A model generated the notes under the pieces. It did not search any database, was not told where the DNA came from, and saw only the letters and a list, made by a program, of their open reading frames with translations. 40,178 nt of DNA, taken from assembly GCA_003215315.1 (NCBI GenBank), contig QCKO01000010.1, positions 1-40,178 of the forward strand. The letters are read 5' to 3'. The DNA comes from Prochlorococcus sp. AG-409-P19 (GTDB lineage: Bacteria > Cyanobacteriota > Cyanobacteriia > PCC-6307 > Cyanobiaceae). The translations under genes were made by a program, and so were the position numbers. Each line of letters begins with the position of its first letter. The stretch's first letter is position 1. Below are positions 3,472 through 26,315 of the stretch, piece by piece.

Positions 3472-4824
3472 ATGTCTCAAAGACTCGCTTCACAAGCTCA
3501 AAGCACTCAAATGAACCACTTAGGCTTTTTAAAGTGCTTAGAAAACTTTAATGACTCAATTAGAGAATTAGATAGGATAACAAAAAGGACTACTGGAAAA
3601 ACTCAAGCAAATGCTATAAAAACAGTCAACGAAATTCTTGAAAGAATTGATCAACTTGGTGATAAAGCTGTCATTGAATACACGTTGCGCTTCGACGGTT
3701 TCTCCCCGGAACCTTTATTGATTCCAGAAAAACTCCTACAAGAATCCTGGAATAAAACACCTAAATCTCTTCAACTAGCACTACAAACCGCAAAAAAAAG
3801 GATTGAAGATTTTCATAATTTAGAAATCCCGAAAGACATATCTTTAAAAGGACATTATGGGGAAACTCTTAGCAGAAGATGGCTTCCAGTAGAAAAAGCT
3901 GGTATTTATATCCCAGGTGGACGAGCAGCATACCCAAGTACAGTTTTAATGAATGCTATCCCTGCATTAGTGGCTGGCGTCAAAGAAATATTAATGATGT
4001 CTCCAGGGAATCAAAAAGGTGAAATAAATCAAACTGTGCTTGCTGCTGCCTACATTACAGGTATCAAAAAAGTATTCCGTATTGGGGGCGCGCAAGCAAT
4101 TGGAGCACTTGCCTATGGGACAGAATCAATTGCGAAAGTTGATGTAATTACTGGGCCTGGAAATCTTTACGTGACATTAGCTAAAAAATTAGTTTATGGA
4201 AAAGTTGGCATAGATTCTTTAGCTGGGCCAAGCGAAGTTTTAATTATTGCAGACAAATCAGCAAAAGTTTCTCATGTTGCTGCTGACATGCTTGCACAAT
4301 CTGAGCATGACCCACTTGCTTCAGCAATCCTAATCACAACCGAAAAAAACTTAGCGGAGAAGTTACCTAACGAAATCAATAGACAACTAAAAAATCACCC
4401 TCGAGCAGAAATCTGTAAGCAATCTTTGTCTAATTGGGGAGTAATAATAATATGTAAAGACTTAGAATCTTGTCTGAAATTAAGTGATCATTTTGCACCT
4501 GAACATCTTGAGTTGCTTACAGAAAATCCTAAAGATTTAGCAAAATATATTAAAAATGCTGGTGCAATATTCATTGGTCCATGGAGTCCTGAAGCAGTAG
4601 GTGATTACTTAGCAGGCCCAAATCACACTTTACCAACATCAGGCACTGCCAGATTTAGCGGTGCCTTAGGAGTTGAAACATTTATGAAAAACACATCAAT
4701 TATCGAATTTTCCGAGGATGCATTTAACATTAATAGTGATTCAGTAATTGAATTAGCCAAAAGTGAAGGATTATATAGCCATGGACAATCAATTCATATA
4801 AGGTCTGCTAATTCTGATTCATAG
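3472..4824 (+). CDS. hisD: Histidinol dehydrogenase
   Basis: Zn-dependent enzyme for the last two steps of histidine synthesis: L-histidinol to L-histidinal to L-histidine with two NAD+. The 450-residue protein shows the family core: [60 protein letters not shown], the metal-binding AQSEHDPLA (Gln and His ligands) and [10 protein letters not shown] with catalytic Glu/His, and a C-terminal ligand region near [11 protein letters not shown]. It is a little longer than the usual ~430 because of the N-terminus; M14 (ATG at 3511) is an alternative start. It stands alone among non-histidine genes, as his genes usually do in cyanobacteria. Its 3' end overlaps the 3' end of the convergent rpiA by 17 bp. 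Confidence 0.97.
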
Positions 4825-5518
4825 AATAAACACTAGCAATATCATCCTTTACTTGTCCTACTAGAACTTGATCAGTTAGATTTACAAAAAGACCATTCTC
4901 AAGAACTCCTGGGATATTATTGATTTCTCTTTCGAGATTTTCTGGGTTATCAATTCCATTCTTAAATATTACATCGAGTACTAAATTTCCTTGATCTGTA
5001 ACAATAGGGCCTGCTTTATTCTTTGCCATTCTTAATTCACTTTTACCATTTAATTCTTGAATATTATTTTTAACTTGTTTCCAAGCTGAAGGTAAAACTT
5101 CCACTGGCAGTTTAAATTGAAGGTTTAATTTATCTACAATTTTGGTTGAGTCAACAACAACAATAAATCTGTTCGCAAGAGCAGCTACCAACTTTTCTTG
5201 AACATGACATGCACCTCCTCCTTTTATTAATTGAAAATTAGGGTCAACTTCATCAGCACCATCGATAGCTAAATCAATTTGCGATACTGAAGAGAGACTT
5301 TTTAAAGGTATTCCAAGTTCAGAAGCCAAAACCTCGCCTTGGAATGATGTAGTAACTCCTACAACATCATTAATTTCACCAGACCTAATTTTTCTTCCTA
5401 AAGCCTCAATCATCAAAGCTGCTGTTGATCCAGAGCCCAGTCCCAGAACCATACCGCTTTGAATTTGATCAACAGCAGCGCATGCCACTGCGTGTTTCAT
5501 TTGTGTTTGAAGATCCAC
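4808..5518 (-). CDS. rpiA: Ribose-5-phosphate isomerase A
   Basis: Interconverts ribose-5-phosphate and ribulose-5-phosphate in the Calvin cycle and pentose phosphate pathway. 236 residues, the normal RpiA length, with the phosphate-binding [16 protein letters not shown], the active-site [23 protein letters not shown] motif (catalytic Asp and Glu), the [19 protein letters not shown] strand and the VEVLPSAW segment. The start is GTG at 5516-5518; an in-frame ATG at 5498-5500 (MKHAVAC) is the alternative. It lies 39 bp downstream of the Deg protease, same strand, so possibly cotranscribed. Its 3' end overlaps hisD convergently. Confidence 0.96.
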
Positions 5519-5557
5519 TATCAGTAAATTGCAATTCGTGAAACAGTAGCAAGATGA

Positions 5558-6763
<1,206 letters not shown>

Positions 6764-6817
6764 CTATAAGAGAACATTGAACCCCATATCGAGTAGAATT
6801 AAGAGGCCTGATGGTTA

Positions 6818-6873
6818 CCTCCTTAAATGGAGGCAGCTTAAAACTGAACCTGTCGGGCATGCCCCCGTCCGAC
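6818..6873 (+). promoter_or_regulatory. Two stem-loops in the rimP leader
   Basis: Hairpin 1 is CCTCC (6818-6822), loop TTAAAT, GGAGG (6829-6833). Hairpin 2 is GTCGGGC (6852-6858), loop ATGCCCCC, GTCCGAC (6867-6873), seven pairs with one G-U; it also contains the palindrome GGGCATGCCC (6855-6864). They lie just before the likely rimP start at 6888. GC-rich stems stand out against AT-rich surroundings. Hairpin 1 could hide or expose a GGAGG sequence. They may be a control element of the rimP-nusA-infB operon, but no known RNA family was recognised. Confidence 0.4.
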
Positions 6874-6887
6874 TTCAAACCTGCCTC

Positions 6888-7358
6888 TTGTCTAACACCA
6901 TCATCACGGATTTAGAGAAAATTGCTTCTCAGACTGCCTATGATAAGGGTTTTGAAATTATTGATTTACAAGTAAATTCCCAACCCAATTCAGTGTCCAT
7001 TCAAATACAAATCAGACATTGCGACAAAAATAAGGATGTATCAATTAATGATTGCGCACAATTAAATCCTCCCATTAATGAAGCAATAGAAGATTCTAAA
7101 CTTATCGATCAACCATTTTTCCTGGAAATTAGTAGTACTGGCATAAGTGAATTCCTCACTGAAGACAGAGACTTCCAGACTTTTAAAGGTTTTCCAGTAG
7201 AAGTTACCTATAAAGAAGATGAACTTACTCAAAAATTACAAAATGGTTTACTCCAAGACCGATCTGAAAATGACCTTCTAATTAACCTGAAAGGAAGAAT
7301 TAGTCGAATACCGCGCGACGACGTGATTAAAGTGCGACTGACTACTCCAACTGGTTAA
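6888..7358 (+). CDS. rimP: Ribosome maturation factor RimP
   Basis: Cytosolic factor for 30S subunit maturation. The conserved body starts at ITDLEKIASQTAYDKGFEIIDLQV, and the family features QIQIRHCDK, DCAQLNPPINEAIEDSKLI, FFLEISSTGISEFLTEDRDFQTFKGFPVEV and the C-terminal IPRDDVIKVRLTT follow. The open frame runs back to a TTG at 6777, but residues 1-37 of that form do not look like RimP; the family begins two to eight residues before this helix, so TTG at 6888 (about 156 residues) is preferred. It is followed by nusA after 47 bp, the classical rimP-nusA-ylxR-infB order. Confidence 0.9.
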   Translation: MSNTIITDLEKIASQTAYDKGFEIIDLQVNSQPNSVSIQIQIRHCDKNKDVSINDCAQLNPPINEAIEDSKLIDQPFFLEISSTGISEFLTEDRDFQTFKGFPVEVTYKEDELTQKLQNGLLQDRSENDLLINLKGRISRIPRDDVIKVRLTTPTG

Positions 7359-7405: not shown

Positions 7406-8890
7406 ATGGCACTTGTTTTACTCCCAGGCCTTAATACTTTAATTGAAGACATTAGTGAGGAAAAAAAACTTCCCACTCAAGTCGTAGAAGCTGCTCTTAG
7501 AGAAGCTCTTTTAAAAGGATATGAGAGATACAGAAAAACGTTGTATTTAGGGATCAGTCAAGACCCATTCGAAGAAGATTATTTTAGTAATTTTGATGTT
7601 GGATTAGATTTAGAAGAAGAAGGTTACAGAGTTTTAGCTAGTAAAATTATTGTTGAAGATGTCCAAAGTGAAGACCATCAAATAGCCATAGCAGAAGTCA
7701 TGCAAGTGGCTGATGATGCTCAAGTGGGAGACACAGTTGTACTTGATGTAACACCTGAGAAAGAAGAGTTCGGCCGGATGGCAGCTGCTACTACAAAACA
7801 AGTACTTGCTCAAAAGCTTCGCGATCAGCAAAGGAGAATGATCCAAGAAGAATTTGCAGACTTAGAAGATCCTGTTTTAACAGCACGAGTAATTAGATTT
7901 GAAAGGCAGTCGGTAATTATGGCTGTCAGTTCAGGCTTGGGCAGACCAGAAGTCGAAGCTGAGCTACCTAGAAGAGATCAACTTCCGAACGATAATTACC
8001 GTGCAAATGCAACATTTAAAGTATTTCTAAAAGAAGTAAGTGAAGTCCCTCGAAGAGGGCCACAATTGTTCGTAAGCAGAGCGAATGCAGGTTTAGTTGT
8101 TTATTTATTTGAGAATGAAGTCCCAGAAATTCAAGAAGGTTCCGTAAAAATTGTTGCAGTCGCCAGAGAAGCCAACCCACCATCAAGATCTGTAGGTCCT
8201 AGAACCAAAGTAGCCGTAGACAGTATCGAAAGAGAGGTTGATCCGGTTGGTGCCTGTATTGGTGCTAGAGGAGCTCGAATTCAACAAGTAGTTAATGAAC
8301 TTCGCGGCGAAAAAATAGATGTTATTCGATGGTCAGCTGACCCCGTTCAATATATTTCCAACTCTCTAAGTCCAGCGCGAGTAGAAGTTGTCAGATTGGT
8401 AGACCCTGATGGGCAGCATGCTCATGTCTTAGTCCCTCCAGATCAATTAAGTCTTGCAATAGGTAGAGAAGGGCAAAATGTACGACTTGCAGCCAGGCTC
8501 ACTGGTTGGAAAATAGATATAAAAAATTCCCAGGAATATGATCAAGAAGCAGAGGATGCTGAGGTTTCAGAATTAATCTCACAAAGAGAAGAAGAAGAAG
8601 CATTGCAACGAGAAGCCGAAGAGAGATTAGAAGCTGAACAAGCTGCTCGAGCAGAAGAAGATGCAAGGCTAAGAGAACTTTATCCACTACCAGAGGATGA
8701 GGAAGACTATCCAAATACAGATATACAAGAAGAAGATAATGAAAAAACTCTGTCTGAAGAGGAAACAGATATACAAGAAGAAGATAATGAAAAAACTCTG
8801 TCTGAAGAGGAAAACGATGTCAATACAAAACTAAATGTTGATAATTCAGATGAGATAATGGAGGAACAAGATGAGGAAGGACCCCGGTGA
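7406..8890 (+). CDS. nusA: Transcription termination/antitermination factor NusA
   Basis: RNA polymerase-binding factor that controls pausing, termination and antitermination. 494 residues: N-terminal polymerase-binding domain (1 to ~125, beginning [20 protein letters not shown]), S1 domain (~135-200), KH1 around 278-310 ([18 protein letters not shown]) and KH2 around 345-372 ([19 protein letters not shown]). After the KH domains comes a coiled, very acidic tail (~378-494) instead of the E. coli AR repeats. The tail contains an exact 16-residue tandem duplication ([16 protein letters not shown] twice). The stop overlaps the next gene's GTG by four bases (GTGA), implying translational coupling. 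Confidence 0.97.
8717..8812 (+). repeat. Exact 48-bp tandem duplication inside nusA
   Basis: Two adjacent, base-for-base identical 48-bp copies, 8717-8764 and 8765-8812, in frame, each coding for [16 protein letters not shown] in the acidic tail of NusA. No synonymous difference separates the copies, so the duplication is recent or is kept uniform by slippage. Confidence 0.97.
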
Positions 8891-20865: not shown

Positions 20866-23547
20866 GTGGGGAAATTAATCAAAACCGATATAAAGGCCAA
20901 CAAAAATGATCTGCCTATAGATTTCAACCAGTTAATTGACAGTAGCATTTCAAAGCCTGCGAGATATATGGGGTTAGAACAAGGGGTCGAATATCATAAT
21001 TGGGATAAAGCTAAAGTTAGATGGGCACTTACTTATCCTGAAATTTACGAAATAGGCGCTTCGAATTTAGGACATATAATTCTTTATTCAATTCTCAATA
21101 AAGTCCCTGGACAAATCTGCGATCGTGCTTATCTACCAGACAAAGATCTAGCCTTAAGACTTAGAGAGCAATCGCTACCATTATTTGGCGTTGAATCTAG
21201 AAGGCCTTTAATCAGCTTTGATTTAGTGGGTTTTAGTTTGAGCTATGAATTAGGGGCAACCAATATTTTAGAAATGCTAGATCTATCTGGCATCAAACTC
21301 AACGCTAGAGAGAGACAGAATATTCCATTAAATGAACCACACTCAACACCTCTAATTTTTGCCGGCGGCCCCACAGCAACAAGCAACCCAGAACCATATG
21401 CCTCTTTCTTCGATTTCTTTACTTTAGGAGACGGAGAGGAGGTCCTTCCAGAAATTGGATTAATAATTGCCCAAGGTAAAGAAAAAAACCTTTCAAGATT
21501 TTCACTCCTTAAAGAAATCTCAGAAATACCTGGAGTGTATGTTCCATCATTTTACTCTCCAAGCAAAAAGTCACCAAAAATAGAACCTATTCAGCCATAT
21601 GTACCTCATCGAGTTTTAAGACGTGTTTCTTCACCAATGCCCAGTTATGGAATGGGATTAGTGCCATATGTTGAAACAGTTCATGATCGACTCACTATTG
21701 AAATCAGGAGAGGTTGCACAAAAGGTTGCCGTTTCTGTCAGCCTGGCATGCTAACTCGGCCAGCCAGAGATCTAAAGCCCAAAGAAGTCATACATGCTGT
21801 AGAAGCTGGTATGAAGCAAACAGGTTATAGCGATTTCTCTTTACTATCTTTAAGTTGTAGCGATTATTTGTCTCTACCATCCGTAGGAATAGAACTACGT
21901 AATCGTTTATCAAAAGAGAACATCTCTCTTCAACTTCCTAGCCAAAGAATAGACAGATTTGACGACAATATTGCACACATTCTTGGAGGCAATCGTAAAT
22001 CAGGTCTTACATTCGCTCCAGAAGCAGGGACGCAACGATTACGTGACATTATCAACAAAGGTTTATCTGATGAAGATTTACTTAAAGGAATAAGAACAGC
22101 GATGAAAAACAATTATCGCAAAATAAAGCTATATTTCATGATTGGTTTACCTGGAGAAAGAGATGAAGATGTAATCGGAATCGCAAATACATGTAAAAAC
22201 CTTCAGTCAAATTGTAGAGATTTAGGTTACTTAAATTTCAACATAACAATTAGTAATTTCACCCCTAAGCCCCATACTCCATTTCAATGGCATAGTGTTT
22301 CTCATATTGAGTTCATGAGAAAACAAAAAATACTCAAAGAAGCTTTCCGGCAAATAAAGGGTATAAAAGTGAATTACACCGATATTAGAATCTCATCAAT
22401 TGAAGATTTTATTGGAAGAGGTGGACGAGAACTTAGTCCCGTCATTGAAGCAGCATGGAGATCAGGAGCCGGAATGGATGCCTGGTTTGAATCTCAAGAT
22501 AAAGTTTATGGGGCTTGGAAAACCGCAATAATTGATGCAGGTCTAGAAGGGAAATATAGAAAGCTTGAGCTTGGCAATTGGAGCACACTCGAACAACTTA
22601 GCAAAGACGATTTGATCAAGTTCTGTAATCAACCTCTCCCATGGGACCACATTGATTCTGGAATTACAAAACAATGGTTAATCAATGATCTGCAAAGAGC
22701 ACTTAACTTAACAACAGTGCCTGATTGCTCTTTCAATGAATGCAGTAGTTGTGGCGTATGCGGGTCTGATTTAGGTCACAACGTAGTTATTCAACCTCCG
22801 CCGATACCTGATCCATGTACAACAAGCTCTCCCCCACAGGAGAAAATTAGTCGTGTCTTAATAAAATTTTCAAAAACAAACCCTATGCACCTTATTAGTC
22901 ACCTTGATTTAATGAGATTGCTAGAGAGATGTTTGAGAAAAAGTCAACTCCCAGTAAGTTATTCTGGAGGTTTTCACTCTCTCCCACGCATACGAGTTGC
23001 ACTTGCTCTGCCTCTAGGAGTTGAAGCCTTAAATGAATGGCTAGATATTGATTTCTATGAAGATGTACCAGCTCAAACAATTAAAGCAGAACTAGAAAAA
23101 CAATTACCTAAAGGGATCAAACTACTATCTGCAATAAATATCCCTGTAAAAAGCTCAAACTTATCTCAGAAAATCAAAGGAGCAATATGGAGCTTTGATT
23201 TAATAGCAACAGAAAGTAAATACCCGTCCGTATCGGAATGGAAAAAAGCAATCAACAAGCTTCTTCAAGCCAATGAACTTATATGGAAAGATAAAGACAA
23301 AAAAGGACGACCTAGAGAAAGAGACTTCCATGAAGCATTAATCTCACTTAAAATTAATCACATAGAAAACTTATCCTCAGACATATCCAAACCACAAAGA
23401 GTTAGATTGCAACTTCATAGTGAAATTGATGAAAGCGGGAGAAGCATTAAGCCAATTCAGGTAAAGAACTGGTTGGATAAAATTTTTGGATTAGATCTCA
23501 AGTTGAAAAGTATAAAAAGAGATGAACTACAGTTAAAGTGCTGCTAA
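20866..23547 (+). CDS. Radical SAM protein fused to DUF2344 domain
   Basis: 893 residues combining three parts: a B12-binding-like N-terminal region (~40-250; LTYPEIYEIGASNLGHIILY, GFSLSYELGATNILEML, FAGGPTATSNPEPYASFFDF, LGDGEEVLPE); a radical SAM barrel with CTKGCRFC (Cys 284, 288, 291), LTFAPEAGTQRLRDIINKG and FMIGLPGERDED; and a C-terminal DUF2344 domain (~660-890; LISHLDLMRLLERCLRKSQL). Between the last two a Cys cluster C621-x4-C626-x2-C629-x2-C632 suggests a second Fe-S centre. In many bacteria the DUF2344 part is a separate gene next to the RNase E/G gene, and here rne follows directly, so a role in tRNA/rRNA modification or RNase E-linked RNA metabolism is likely but unproven. Start GTG 20866. 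Confidence 0.88.
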   Translation: MGKLIKTDIKANKNDLPIDFNQLIDSSISKPARYMGLEQGVEYHNWDKAKVRWALTYPEIYEIGASNLGHIILYSILNKVPGQICDRAYLPDKDLALRLREQSLPLFGVESRRPLISFDLVGFSLSYELGATNILEMLDLSGIKLNARERQNIPLNEPHSTPLIFAGGPTATSNPEPYASFFDFFTLGDGEEVLPEIGLIIAQGKEKNLSRFSLLKEISEIPGVYVPSFYSPSKKSPKIEPIQPYVPHRVLRRVSSPMPSYGMGLVPYVETVHDRLTIEIRRGCTKGCRFCQPGMLTRPARDLKPKEVIHAVEAGMKQTGYSDFSLLSLSCSDYLSLPSVGIELRNRLSKENISLQLPSQRIDRFDDNIAHILGGNRKSGLTFAPEAGTQRLRDIINKGLSDEDLLKGIRTAMKNNYRKIKLYFMIGLPGERDEDVIGIANTCKNLQSNCRDLGYLNFNITISNFTPKPHTPFQWHSVSHIEFMRKQKILKEAFRQIKGIKVNYTDIRISSIEDFIGRGGRELSPVIEAAWRSGAGMDAWFESQDKVYGAWKTAIIDAGLEGKYRKLELGNWSTLEQLSKDDLIKFCNQPLPWDHIDSGITKQWLINDLQRALNLTTVPDCSFNECSSCGVCGSDLGHNVVIQPPPIPDPCTTSSPPQEKISRVLIKFSKTNPMHLISHLDLMRLLERCLRKSQLPVSYSGGFHSLPRIRVALALPLGVEALNEWLDIDFYEDVPAQTIKAELEKQLPKGIKLLSAINIPVKSSNLSQKIKGAIWSFDLIATESKYPSVSEWKKAINKLLQANELIWKDKDKKGRPRERDFHEALISLKINHIENLSSDISKPQRVRLQLHSEIDESGRSIKPIQVKNWLDKIFGLDLKLKSIKRDELQLKCC

Positions 23548-23555
23548 TATATTAA

Positions 23556-23584
23556 AAGAACCAAGGAAGATCCCTTCAGTTCTT
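23556..23584 (+). terminator. Weak terminator-like hairpin after the DUF2344 gene
   Basis: AAGAAC (23556-23561) pairs with GTTCTT (23579-23584), with an inner AAGG/CCTT pairing, followed by AATTAACGTCATTTTTTGG. The stem is imperfect and the T run is displaced, so it may end or attenuate the upstream transcript before rne. Confidence 0.35.
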
Positions 23585-23725
23585 AATTAACGTCATTTTT
23601 TGGAAGAGAGATCTAATTCTCATCAACATCCGGCACATCAATTCCCGGTAATAAGTAAATCAATTCGAGAACATGGTCTAAGTATCTCTTCCAGCAAGAG
23701 TTGTCGTTAAACGTTCGTTTCAGGC

Positions 23726-23749
23726 TATTTGCAGAACACTCTGCAAATA
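23726..23749 (+). promoter_or_regulatory. Stem-loop in the rne 5' leader
   Basis: Perfect 10-bp stem TATTTGCAGA (23726-23735) / TCTGCAAATA (23740-23749) with a four-base ACAC loop, followed by AT-rich ATTTTATTAAAG, and 42 bp before the RNase E start codon. RNase E mRNAs are classically self-controlled through 5' UTR structure; this is a good candidate for such an element, or for a terminator/attenuator. Confidence 0.55.
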
Positions 23750-23791
23750 ATTTTATTAAAGAGCCAACAAGGCCCACACTCATTTTTGTAT

Positions 23792-25714
23792 ATGCCTCAG
23801 CAAATTATCATCGCTGAGCAGTTGCGAATTGCAGCACTGCTCACTGATGAGCGAATAGACGAATTAATTGTCGCCCAGGGTCGCTATCAAATCGGAGATG
23901 TATTTTTAGGCACAGTTGAAAATGTTCTTCCAGGAATTGATGCGGCTTTTGTCAATATTGGAGAAAGTGAAAAGAATGGATTTATTCATGTAAGTGATTT
24001 AGGACCTTTAAGACTAAAAAAAGGAGCCGCAGCAATAACAGAATTACTAGAGCCCAGGCAAAAGGTTTTAGTACAAGTAATGAAAGAACCTACAGGATCT
24101 AAAGGTCCTAGATTATCAGGAAATTTAGTATTACCTGGTAGATACATTGCTCTTCAACCTCATGGGCAAGGGGTAAATATTTCACGCAAAATCAGTTCAG
24201 AAGGTGAAAGGAATCGACTGAGAGCTCTCGGAGTGTTAATTAAACCTTCAAGTACTGGACTAGTAATGAGAACAGAAGCTGAAGATATAAGCGAAGAAAA
24301 TCTAATAAATGACTTTGAAATTTTGCTTAAACAATGGGACCTAATTCAACAAGCAGCAGAAGAATGCACACCACCACTTCTATTAAACCGGGATGAAGAT
24401 TTTATACATCGAATACTCAGAGATCATAGAAGTCCAAACTTACATAAAATAGTAGTTGACAACATAGATGGTGTTGAAAGAATTAAAAAATTCTTAGGTG
24501 ATGAAGATAAGATCTCTATAGAAGTGCATCATGAGCCTGATGAAATACTTGAACATTATAAGGTCAACCTTTCTATACAAAATGCTTTAAAACCAAGAGT
24601 TGATCTACCTTCTGGCGGCTATATTATTATAGAACCTACAGAAGCATTAACAGTTATTGATGTCAATTCAGGGTCATTTACACGATCCGCGAATTCAAGA
24701 GAAACTGTTCTATGGACAAACTGTGAAGCAGCAATTGAAATAGCTAGACAGTTAAAGCTACGAAATATAGGTGGAGTAATAATTATCGATTTTATCGATA
24801 TGGATACGAGAAGAGATCAACTTCAACTTCTTGAACATTTCACATCTGCAATCAAGGATGACTCGGCACGGCCACAAATAGCACAACTAACAGAGCTTGG
24901 CCTTGTAGAGCTAACAAGGAAAAGACAAGGTCAGAACATTTATGAATTATTTGGAAAAACTTGTCCAACTTGTTCAGGCCAAGGTCTCATTGGGATAATC
25001 CCTGGCAAAGATCACCTAGAAGAAAGTGCAACAGAAAGTGGGTTAGTTTCTTCCAATCTAAATATTAGAAGGGACGCTTATAAGCAAACAGAAAGCAACA
25101 ATAGTAAGAAAAAGAAAAATAAGAGTAAAGATGACAATATTGGTGATCAAGATGATTCCGGACTACACATTGATAATGATTCTTCTATTAACTCTGAAGG
25201 AGTTGCAGAAGAAAACAATGTGGAGAGCTTTTCAAATAAACAAGAAGCTGAATTAATCACAGTAGGAATAACCGAAGAAGAAGAAGAAATTTATAGCCTA
25301 ATGGGACTTAATCCAATACTTCTAACAGAAAATATTCCACAAAATGAAAACTTGATTGTTCATATTGTAAGGCCTGGAGAAGATGAAGCAAAGGTCTTAG
25401 ATGATGCAAAAAAAGCAATGATAGCGAACTCAAATAAAAAACGTAAACGGGGCAAAAATCAAGTTCGAACAAATATTAAAAGCACAGAGGAAGCCAATTT
25501 AAATAAAAATATAGAAATCCTAAATAAGTCTTCCCAAGAAAGTAACGAATCCGATGAGGAGCATCAAAATTCTAATGATGATATAACTATTATAGAACCC
25601 TTAATGACATTAAATGAGAATCAGGACAGTAACGATGAGAATGAACTATCAACACTAGAAGATAATATCGAAGACCCTAGAAGACGACGAAGAAGGTCAT
25701 CAGCTTCTATATAA
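23792..25714 (+). CDS. rne: Ribonuclease E
   Basis: Single-strand-specific endoribonuclease that starts mRNA decay and processes rRNA/tRNA. I start it at ATG 23792 (MPQQIIIAEQLRIAALLTDE), the family N-terminus; a frame running 21 codons further back crosses the leader hairpin. 640 residues: S1 domain in the first ~110 (GDVFLGTVENVLPGIDAAFV), RNase H-like and 5'-sensor regions, DNase I-like catalytic Asp290 (VIDVNSGS) and Asp333 (IIIDFIDMD), and the Zn-link Cys391/Cys394 (CPTCSGQG), all offset by 13 from E. coli. The acidic, disordered tail ends in RRRRRRSSA, the nonapeptide reported to bind PNPase in cyanobacteria. rnhB follows after 4 bp. Confidence 0.96.
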   Translation: MPQQIIIAEQLRIAALLTDERIDELIVAQGRYQIGDVFLGTVENVLPGIDAAFVNIGESEKNGFIHVSDLGPLRLKKGAAAITELLEPRQKVLVQVMKEPTGSKGPRLSGNLVLPGRYIALQPHGQGVNISRKISSEGERNRLRALGVLIKPSSTGLVMRTEAEDISEENLINDFEILLKQWDLIQQAAEECTPPLLLNRDEDFIHRILRDHRSPNLHKIVVDNIDGVERIKKFLGDEDKISIEVHHEPDEILEHYKVNLSIQNALKPRVDLPSGGYIIIEPTEALTVIDVNSGSFTRSANSRETVLWTNCEAAIEIARQLKLRNIGGVIIIDFIDMDTRRDQLQLLEHFTSAIKDDSARPQIAQLTELGLVELTRKRQGQNIYELFGKTCPTCSGQGLIGIIPGKDHLEESATESGLVSSNLNIRRDAYKQTESNNSKKKKNKSKDDNIGDQDDSGLHIDNDSSINSEGVAEENNVESFSNKQEAELITVGITEEEEEIYSLMGLNPILLTENIPQNENLIVHIVRPGEDEAKVLDDAKKAMIANSNKKRKRGKNQVRTNIKSTEEANLNKNIEILNKSSQESNESDEEHQNSNDDITIIEPLMTLNENQDSNDENELSTLEDNIEDPRRRRRRSSASI

Positions 25715-25718
25715 ATTA

Positions 25719-26315
25719 ATGATGATCAAAACAAATCATATTGCTGGAATAGACGAAGTTGGGAAAGGATCTTTATTCGGACCAGTTTTTGCAGGTGCTG
25801 TAATTCTTGATGATCTGACAGCCATTCATTTACGTAAAGAAGGTGTAAAGGACAGTAAAGAATTAACACCTAAGAAAAGGGCTTATTTAGTTCCGTTAAT
25901 AAAAAAATCGTGTATTGAATGGGGCCTAGGACAAGCTTCAGCAAAAGAAATTGATAAACTAGGCATTCGCGTTGCCACTGAGAAGGCAATGCTACGTGCC
26001 ATCCAAAAGTTAAAAACTACTCCTAAAAAGATTTTAGTAGATGGACATCTACCTCTTCGCATATGGCAAGGCAAGCAGGAGTCAATAATTAATGGAGAAA
26101 GTCATTTTGTATCAATTGCTGCAGCAAGTATATTGGCCAAAGAAGCCAGAGATGATCTTATAAAAAGGTTGGCAGATAAATTTCCAAATTTTGGACTAAG
26201 TTCAAATGTCGGGTATCCCACTGAGCTTCATAGGAAATCACTTAAAATGTATGGTCCAACAGATCTTCATAGGCGAAGTTTTCTTTCAAAAATAATAAGT
26301 CTAGAACAAAAATAA
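25719..26315 (+). CDS. rnhB: Ribonuclease HII
   Basis: 198-residue cytosolic enzyme that nicks RNA-DNA hybrids and removes single ribonucleotides from DNA. The DEDD active site is visible: Asp and Glu in HIAGIDEVGKGSLFGPVFAG, Asp in KILVDGHLPL, and Asp in AAASILAKEARDDLI; the C-terminal GYPTELHRKSLKMYGPTDLH is also typical. Two adjacent ATG codons form the start. Only 4 bp separate it from the rne stop, so it is cotranscribed with rne. It is convergent with the DUF1997 gene, with one base between stops. Confidence 0.96.
   Translation: MMIKTNHIAGIDEVGKGSLFGPVFAGAVILDDLTAIHLRKEGVKDSKELTPKKRAYLVPLIKKSCIEWGLGQASAKEIDKLGIRVATEKAMLRAIQKLKTTPKKILVDGHLPLRIWQGKQESIINGESHFVSIAAASILAKEARDDLIKRLADKFPNFGLSSNVGYPTELHRKSLKMYGPTDLHRRSFLSKIISLEQK

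Follow-up and report, generated by a model that had tools for sequence, protein, structure and literature searches.

A hairpin upstream of rne is part of a predicted folded mRNA leader in marine picocyanobacteria

The hairpin upstream of the RNase E gene (rne) in Prochlorococcus sp. AG-409-P19 is real, and it forms one element of a folded region that opens the predicted rne mRNA of marine picocyanobacteria. By analogy with published rne leaders, RNase E probably acts on this folded leader to restrain its own synthesis. The hairpin itself, here called H1, may serve within a leader of about 235 nt as a docking site for RNase E, with cutting in the adjoining linker and feedback control, a reading that we regard as evenly balanced. 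All coordinates refer to the window, i.e. the whole 40,178-nt stretch of DNA that was analysed.

Results

The rne locus and the sampled relatives

In the window, rne (23792..25714, + strand) encodes an RNase E of 640 aa, recognized by NCBIfam TIGR00757 and Pfam PF10150. The next gene, rnhB for ribonuclease HII (25719..26315, + strand), begins 4 nt after rne. The upstream gene encodes a TIGR03960-type B12-binding radical SAM protein, and its stop codon ends at 23547. The ORF finder placed the start of rne at a TTG at 23729; since the alignments with relatives begin at the ATG (23792), this TTG is probably not the true start. The RNase E of the window scored 726.9 with the NCBIfam model for cyanobacterial RNase E, under its cut-off of 900, with the best stretch ending at residue 470, and the C-terminal part of the protein seems divergent. 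An rne match was present in 36 of 41 genomes of the genus, including the source genome, the assembly of which is incomplete (1.16 Mb, 67% complete).

The relatives used for comparison are a selection among the matches listed, from 300 genomes drawn out of a larger group. The labels LLIV-like, HL and Syn were assigned by title and by resemblance of sequence and do not derive from a tree, and freshwater Cyanobium-type loci were left out of every count. We take HL to be the clade of MED4, a high-light strain. Three of the genus leaders (L097, L098 and L114) look identical to leaders on Prochlorococcus single-cell contigs (L016, L036 and L047).

H1 lies in a predicted 5′ UTR of rne

H1 occupies positions 23726..23749 on the + strand, based on the sequence and fold of the window and on the comparison within the genus. 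Its layout is 23726-TATTTGCAGA-ACAC-TCTGCAAATA-23749, with ten Watson-Crick pairs, three of them G-C, and a loop of 4 nt. The sequence ATTTTATTAA follows directly on the 3′ side, and the distance from H1 to the ATG (23792) is 42 nt. The initial annotation had described a perfect 10-bp stem with a 4-nt loop 42 nt before the RNase E start, and the sequence confirms this description. Across the 40,178 nt, H1 is the sole stem with at least 10 perfect pairs and a loop of 3–8 nt, and the fold of its own zone has a z-score of -3.86. Shuffled versions of the whole window contained a mean of 0.45 stems of this class (40 shuffles). When the 244-nt intergenic region alone was shuffled, 4 of 3000 versions had one. 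Thus, a single stem of this class per window is not rare, but one within the intergenic region is.

An extended -10-like element, TGC-TAATAT (23542..23550, + strand), is the putative rne promoter and was recognized by the pattern TGnTAnnnT in relatives. The upstream radical SAM gene ends within this element, so that the two share the stop codon (TGC TAA TAT, 23542-23550). In a scan confined to positions -262 to -212 and scored as raw counts without a chance level, the pattern was present in the window, with its hexamer 247 nt ahead of the ATG, in all 34 genus leaders (240–257 nt) and in 26 of 27 high-light leaders (222–243 nt). Matches were also seen in 9 of 35 leaders of other Prochlorococcus and in 11 of 17 of Synechococcus. 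For MED4, the rne start sites are published at -220 and -200; with a hexamer at -232, transcription would be expected to begin near -220, which is the published TSS1 (PMC9692554). Applying the same spacing between hexamer and start to the element in the window, we infer that the rne transcript would start near 23557. The 5′ UTR would then measure about 235 nt, with H1 about 170 nt into the mRNA.

The whole leader folds more stably than shuffled sequence

The leader from 23558 to 23800 folds to -54.1 kcal/mol (z = -3.86), and none of 200 shuffles reached an energy as low. For 23558-23791 the z-score is -3.05 (100 shuffles), and when the window is divided into 167 adjacent 240-nt blocks, the block at 23521 ranks second by z (-3.80). 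Among the relatives, in which the leader, control and H1-zone z-scores rest on 385 of 456 folds, the mean z-scores of the leader were -3.22 for the own genus, g1 (n = 29), -2.43 for HL (n = 25), -1.83 for LLIV-like (n = 29) and -1.51 for Syn (n = 14). Control folds from -500 to -265 gave 0.17 for HL, 0.11 for LLIV-like, 0.44 for Syn and -1.25 for g1; the g1 control is therefore already shifted.

Two further blocks of the window are also structured. The most over-structured of the 167 + strand blocks, 5281-5520 (z = -4.4, repeat -3.8), extends over the 5′ end of ORF 4808-5518 on the minus strand, which presumably encodes ribose-5-phosphate isomerase. The block 6721-6960 (z = -3.7, repeat -2.6) lies at the start of ORF 6777-7358 and before the ORF at 7406, which we take to be rimP and nusA, respectively. 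It is possibly a structured leader, with the true start codon downstream of the TTG.

The rne leader was drawn from the fold of the window together with the genus alignment A3, which holds the window and 34 genus leaders (35 rows). A3 shows a 5′-terminal hairpin, long-range P1 and P2, inner hairpins, H1 and H2. The 5′-terminal hairpin PA (23558..23582, + strand) is formed by GAAC/GTTC and AAGG/CCTT, and 75.1% of its cells are paired as drawn in the genus alignment. The long-range domain P1/P2/P3 spans 23587..23710 on the + strand. P1 pairs TTAACG (23587-23592) with CGTTAA (23705-23710) and P2 pairs TGGAAGAGA (23601-23609) with TCTCTTCCA (23685-23693), with 93% and 97% pairing, respectively, over 35 leaders. 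The A3 consensus is TTAACGTCA/TGRCGTTAA for P1 and CTTAAAGGGA/TCTCTTTAAG for P2, which reads TTGGAAGAGA/TCTCTTCCAG in the window. The inner hairpin P3 pairs CCGG (23630-23633) with CCGG (23645-23648) on the same strand; in the 12 rows shown, this hairpin is variable, CCGG/CCGG-like in the window and in divergent members and paired otherwise elsewhere. Ahead of the start codon stands H2 (GAGCC-AACAA-GGCCC, 23761..23775, + strand), a small hairpin with one A.C mismatch in the window.

The seven helices drawn on A3 have 88.4% of their cells paired, compared with at most 47.7% when the partners are slid. Fourteen pairs are doubly changed versus 6.7 ± 1.7 after shuffling (0 of 500 shuffles), and the cells with double changes number 21 in place versus 24 with a slide of -1, which speaks against covariation. 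Double changes occur in three of the ten P2 pairs and in none of the nine P1 pairs (35 leaders). RNAalifold, run unaided on the genus, found P1, P2, one inner hairpin and the core of H1, with a covariation energy of only -0.21. Native 5′ and 3′ segments pair better than species-swapped segments in the genus (p = 0.0009), and no better than swapped ones in LLIV-like (p = 0.11), Syn (p = 0.9) and HL (p = 0.92) leaders. Because native pairing was not above swapped pairing in these three groups, P1/P2 found no support as a domain of all picocyanobacteria. The leader appears to be under selection as RNA, and its structure and, in part, its conservation are supported by comparison.

H1 and H2 across clades

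The GCAG..CTGC-type core of H1, searched with a broad pattern, is present in 31 of 34 leaders of the genus, in 24 of 35 leaders of the other low-light types, in 3 of 17 Syn leaders and in 0 of 27 HL leaders. At least six of eight H1 pairs are kept in 32 of 35 genus rows but all eight in only two, because in most rows the position four pairs down from the loop is mismatched, mostly as T.T. This position, columns 218-233 of A3, is unpaired in 30 of 35 rows, UA in four and AU in one. The stem of the window is perfect because this T.T-type mismatch is closed there. Several other low-light Prochlorococcus have, by eye, an apparent single-base bulge at the position of the genus mismatch. When the ten pairs of the window are followed through the genus, three are unpaired in 29–30 of 35 rows and H1 is 69.7% paired. 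These ten pairs together with H2 contain 6 doubly changed pairs versus 2.7 ± 1.0 after shuffling (1 of 500); their covariation score is 0.054 in place and higher, 0.065, with a slide of +1.

RNAalifold returned no structure for the low-light and Synechococcus-type sets, and so pairs were counted on structures drawn from single rows (the window or L104, L154, L133), which are favoured over slid controls. The low-light set A2 has 36 rows including the window, and at least 75% of the H1 pairs are present in 10 of them. A2 has 30 double-change cells versus 20.2 ± 3.1 after shuffling (1 of 500). In A2 the numbers of doubly changed pairs and of pair types are at the chance level (reached by 100 and 315 of 500 shuffles, respectively), slides match the covariation score (0.177 vs 0.175), and two slides exceed the number of double-change cells (31 and 32).

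The Synechococcus-type set A6 comprises all 65 distinct rows and was relied on over A5, which keeps 51 of these rows after 14 were dropped by eye, some for looking unlike. A6 is mixed, with L124, L132, L147, L151, L152 and L158 also present in A2 and some rows titled Prochlorococcus. In A6, H1 is a bulged hairpin in the same place, with arms very different in sequence, and is followed by H2. The cells of H1 and H2 are 77.2% paired versus 65.5 ± 0.9 after shuffling (0 of 500), in a structure drawn from one row and with a shuffle control that ignores relatedness. By the same control, double-change cells number 145 versus 63.7 ± 8.5 (0 of 500), the covariation score is 0.388 versus 0.218 ± 0.012 (0 of 500) and at most 0.164 when slid, and doubly changed pairs number 14 versus 10.9 (3 of 500).

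H2 is paired in 92.0% of cells in the genus alignment, 83.3% in A2 and 83.7% in A6, where three of its four pairs are doubly changed. At least 75% of its pairs are present in 32 of 35 rows of A1, 28 of 36 of A2 and 39 of 51 of A5. The mean fold z-scores of the H1 zone are -0.68 for g1, -0.33 for HL, -1.11 for LLIV-like and -0.28 for Syn.

The initial annotation had proposed a covariation search of the leader, and its outcome was divided. The pairing of the hairpin at the place of H1 appears to be kept by compensatory change, clearly so in the Synechococcus-type set, whereas the alignments of the own genus and of the low-light set give a mixed picture.

Covariance models built on the genus were run against 63 other loci. 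The H1-H2 model (R1) matched one leader, L117, with an E-value of 0.034; its second match, in L161 (E = 0.38), is on the other strand at an unrelated place away from the leader. The P1/P2/P3 model (R2) had no match among the 63 loci. Homology across the whole family by covariance model was thus not supported (one leader among the 63 loci for R1, none for R2). Since the genus models do not reach the other clades, H1 is equated across clades by position and layout only. Among the HL leaders, L072, L077, L078 and L079 have AU-rich stems of 10–12 bp at -74 to -44 before rne, at the place of H1. The nearest of the other 23 is L080, with 9 pairs at -57 to -36, and the rest are weaker or elsewhere.

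The linker downstream of H1

The U-rich linker ATTTTATTAAA (23750..23760, + strand) is a candidate RNase E cleavage site, by extension from the Synechocystis sites described in PMC10989929. A run of at least five consecutive U between H1 and H2 is present in 27 of 35 genus leaders, and the run in the window is 4. After H1, such a run occurs in 0 of 36 rows of A2 (the window counted) and 0 of 51 rows of A5. The AU content from -50 to -31, compared with that of the leader, is 74% vs 68% in g1, 64% vs 57% in LLIV-like, 44% vs 45% in Syn and 82% vs 81% in HL.

Discussion

In E. coli, the rne5 leader contains a stem-loop that is bound by RNase E. The leader described here resembles rne5 (Rfam RF00040) in its hairpins in the predicted rne 5′ UTR and in the proposed binding of RNase E. 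For the E. coli enzyme, simple stem-loops have been suggested as an activating element that supports cleavage (PMC9841416). In Synechocystis, the cut made by RNase E in the rne 5′ UTR falls within six consecutive U, and elsewhere in that organism the enzyme reportedly binds a short hairpin and cleaves the AU-rich strand just downstream (PMC10989929). The rne 5′ UTR of Synechocystis 6803 resembles what is proposed here in its long leader, its RNase E cut in a U run and its feedback control, but its main cuts lie 228–229 nt after the start and premature termination is reported for it; the likeness is drawn at the level of description (PMC10989929). The rne 5′ UTR of MED4 shares both gene and lineage with the window, and its start sites fit the promoter element found here. 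According to the published work, it contains an autoregulatory cleavage site, and phage bypass the leader in Prochlorococcus through an induced start at +3 (PMC9692554). The comparison with MED4 is weakened by the sampled HL leaders, which are mostly without a clear H1.

In the proposed mechanism, RNase E would dock on H1, perhaps together with H2, as a stem-loop and would cut the adjacent U-rich strand at 23750-23760. A cut in the linker would split the leader from the coding region and open the rne mRNA to decay, so that surplus RNase E would reduce its own message. With RNase E scarce or otherwise engaged, the leader would remain uncut and more enzyme would be made. The 5′-terminal hairpin and P1/P2 may shield the 5′ end, which would make decay dependent on the internal entry site. 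The suggestion of the initial annotation that H1 senses RNase E activity gains from the position of H1 in the predicted 5′ UTR, from the kept pairing of a hairpin at its place, clear in the Synechococcus-type set and mixed in the own genus and the low-light set, and from the autoregulation of rne published for MED4 and Synechocystis. It loses from H1 being only one of seven drawn helices and from the HL clade, where most leaders have no clear equivalent; the absence of the H1 core from all 27 HL leaders, although autoregulation is reported in MED4, counts against docking.

Several other explanations can be set against docking and cleavage. The leader could govern translation or the stability of the mRNA independently of RNase E as a ligand, with H2 and H1 shaping the ribosome site or binding another protein or an sRNA. 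We consider this rather unlikely: H2 does stand immediately before the start codon in most rows, and in the window fold AGGC before H1 pairs with GCCU at the start codon, but this AGGC is absent, by eye, from the other genus rows, and cleavage by RNase E is what the literature on rne leaders of cyanobacteria indicates (PMC9692554 and PMC10989929). The initial annotation also offered an attenuator, in which H1 and the U-rich tract would form a weak intrinsic terminator and regulated readthrough would set rne expression. A terminator pattern matches at H1 (four matches listed in the 2-kb stretch, two of them overlapping, with 1.3 expected), at least five T occur within 8 nt after H1 in 26 of 35 genus leaders, and for the rne 5′ UTR of Synechocystis, premature termination of about 96% has been estimated (PMC10989929). 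However, H1 lacks the G+C-rich stem and the uninterrupted U run, conserved in relatives, of an intrinsic terminator: three of ten pairs are G-C in the window and its U run is broken, and the usual genus form has, by eye, about three other bases between stem and U run. The T-rich tail, so common in the genus, is found in 4 of 36 rows of A2, the window being one, and in 0 of 51 rows of A5, where the hairpin covaries nonetheless. The attenuator is therefore the weaker of the two proposals first made for this hairpin, and we judge it distinctly unlikely.

As DNA, the inverted repeat could be a protein-binding palindrome, and the GCAG/CTGC core is indeed nearly invariant within the genus. In the Synechococcus-type set, by contrast, the arms diverge widely while pairing is kept, which argues for RNA structure and not for an operator; in addition, H1 would lie about 170 nt past the predicted start site, and many relatives have, by eye, an unpaired base in one arm. 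With compensatory pairing across the 65 rows of this set, we judged a DNA operator very improbable. Least probable of all is that H1 is a chance stem or has no role within a leader that is merely stable. Such a view could draw on the 0.45 stems of this class expected per shuffled window and on mean H1-zone z-scores near zero in relatives, but it has to contend with the 4 of 3000 intergenic shuffles, the core in 31 of 34 genus leaders and the covariation in A6. On balance, docking and cleavage by RNase E is the reading we prefer over control of translation and over attenuation, at a confidence that stands midway between belief and doubt.

As a class, the autoregulated rne leader is known, and the fold of this leader appears to be uncatalogued. 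In cmscan, rne5 (RF00040) and rne-II (RF01756) were unmatched both in the window at the gathering score and in 23500-23850 at E-values up to 10; the latter is the motif of Pseudomonadales catalogued as an RNA structure named for rne (PMC2864571). No Rfam family matches the leader of the window, and the leaders of seven relatives have no match at the gathering score. The fold is undescribed in the literature searched, and the 2016 primary MED4 paper may contain a description of it.

We put forward tentatively, and with more doubt than confidence, that the picocyanobacterial rne leader may represent an RNA family that senses RNase E, so far uncatalogued and distinct from rne5 and rne-II. It would consist of a covarying H1-linker-H2 cleavage module common to low-light Prochlorococcus and marine Synechococcus, to which one Prochlorococcus genus would have added the long-range P1/P2 domain and which the high-light clade would have rebuilt. 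A cyanophage would escape this control element through a transcription start at the start codon. Several bacteria adjust the level of RNase E through the leader of its own message; the fold drawn here, with its compensatory changes, offers concrete bases for testing. If the proposal is true, it would add an RNase E-sensing leader, one without an Rfam match, for very abundant marine phototrophs.
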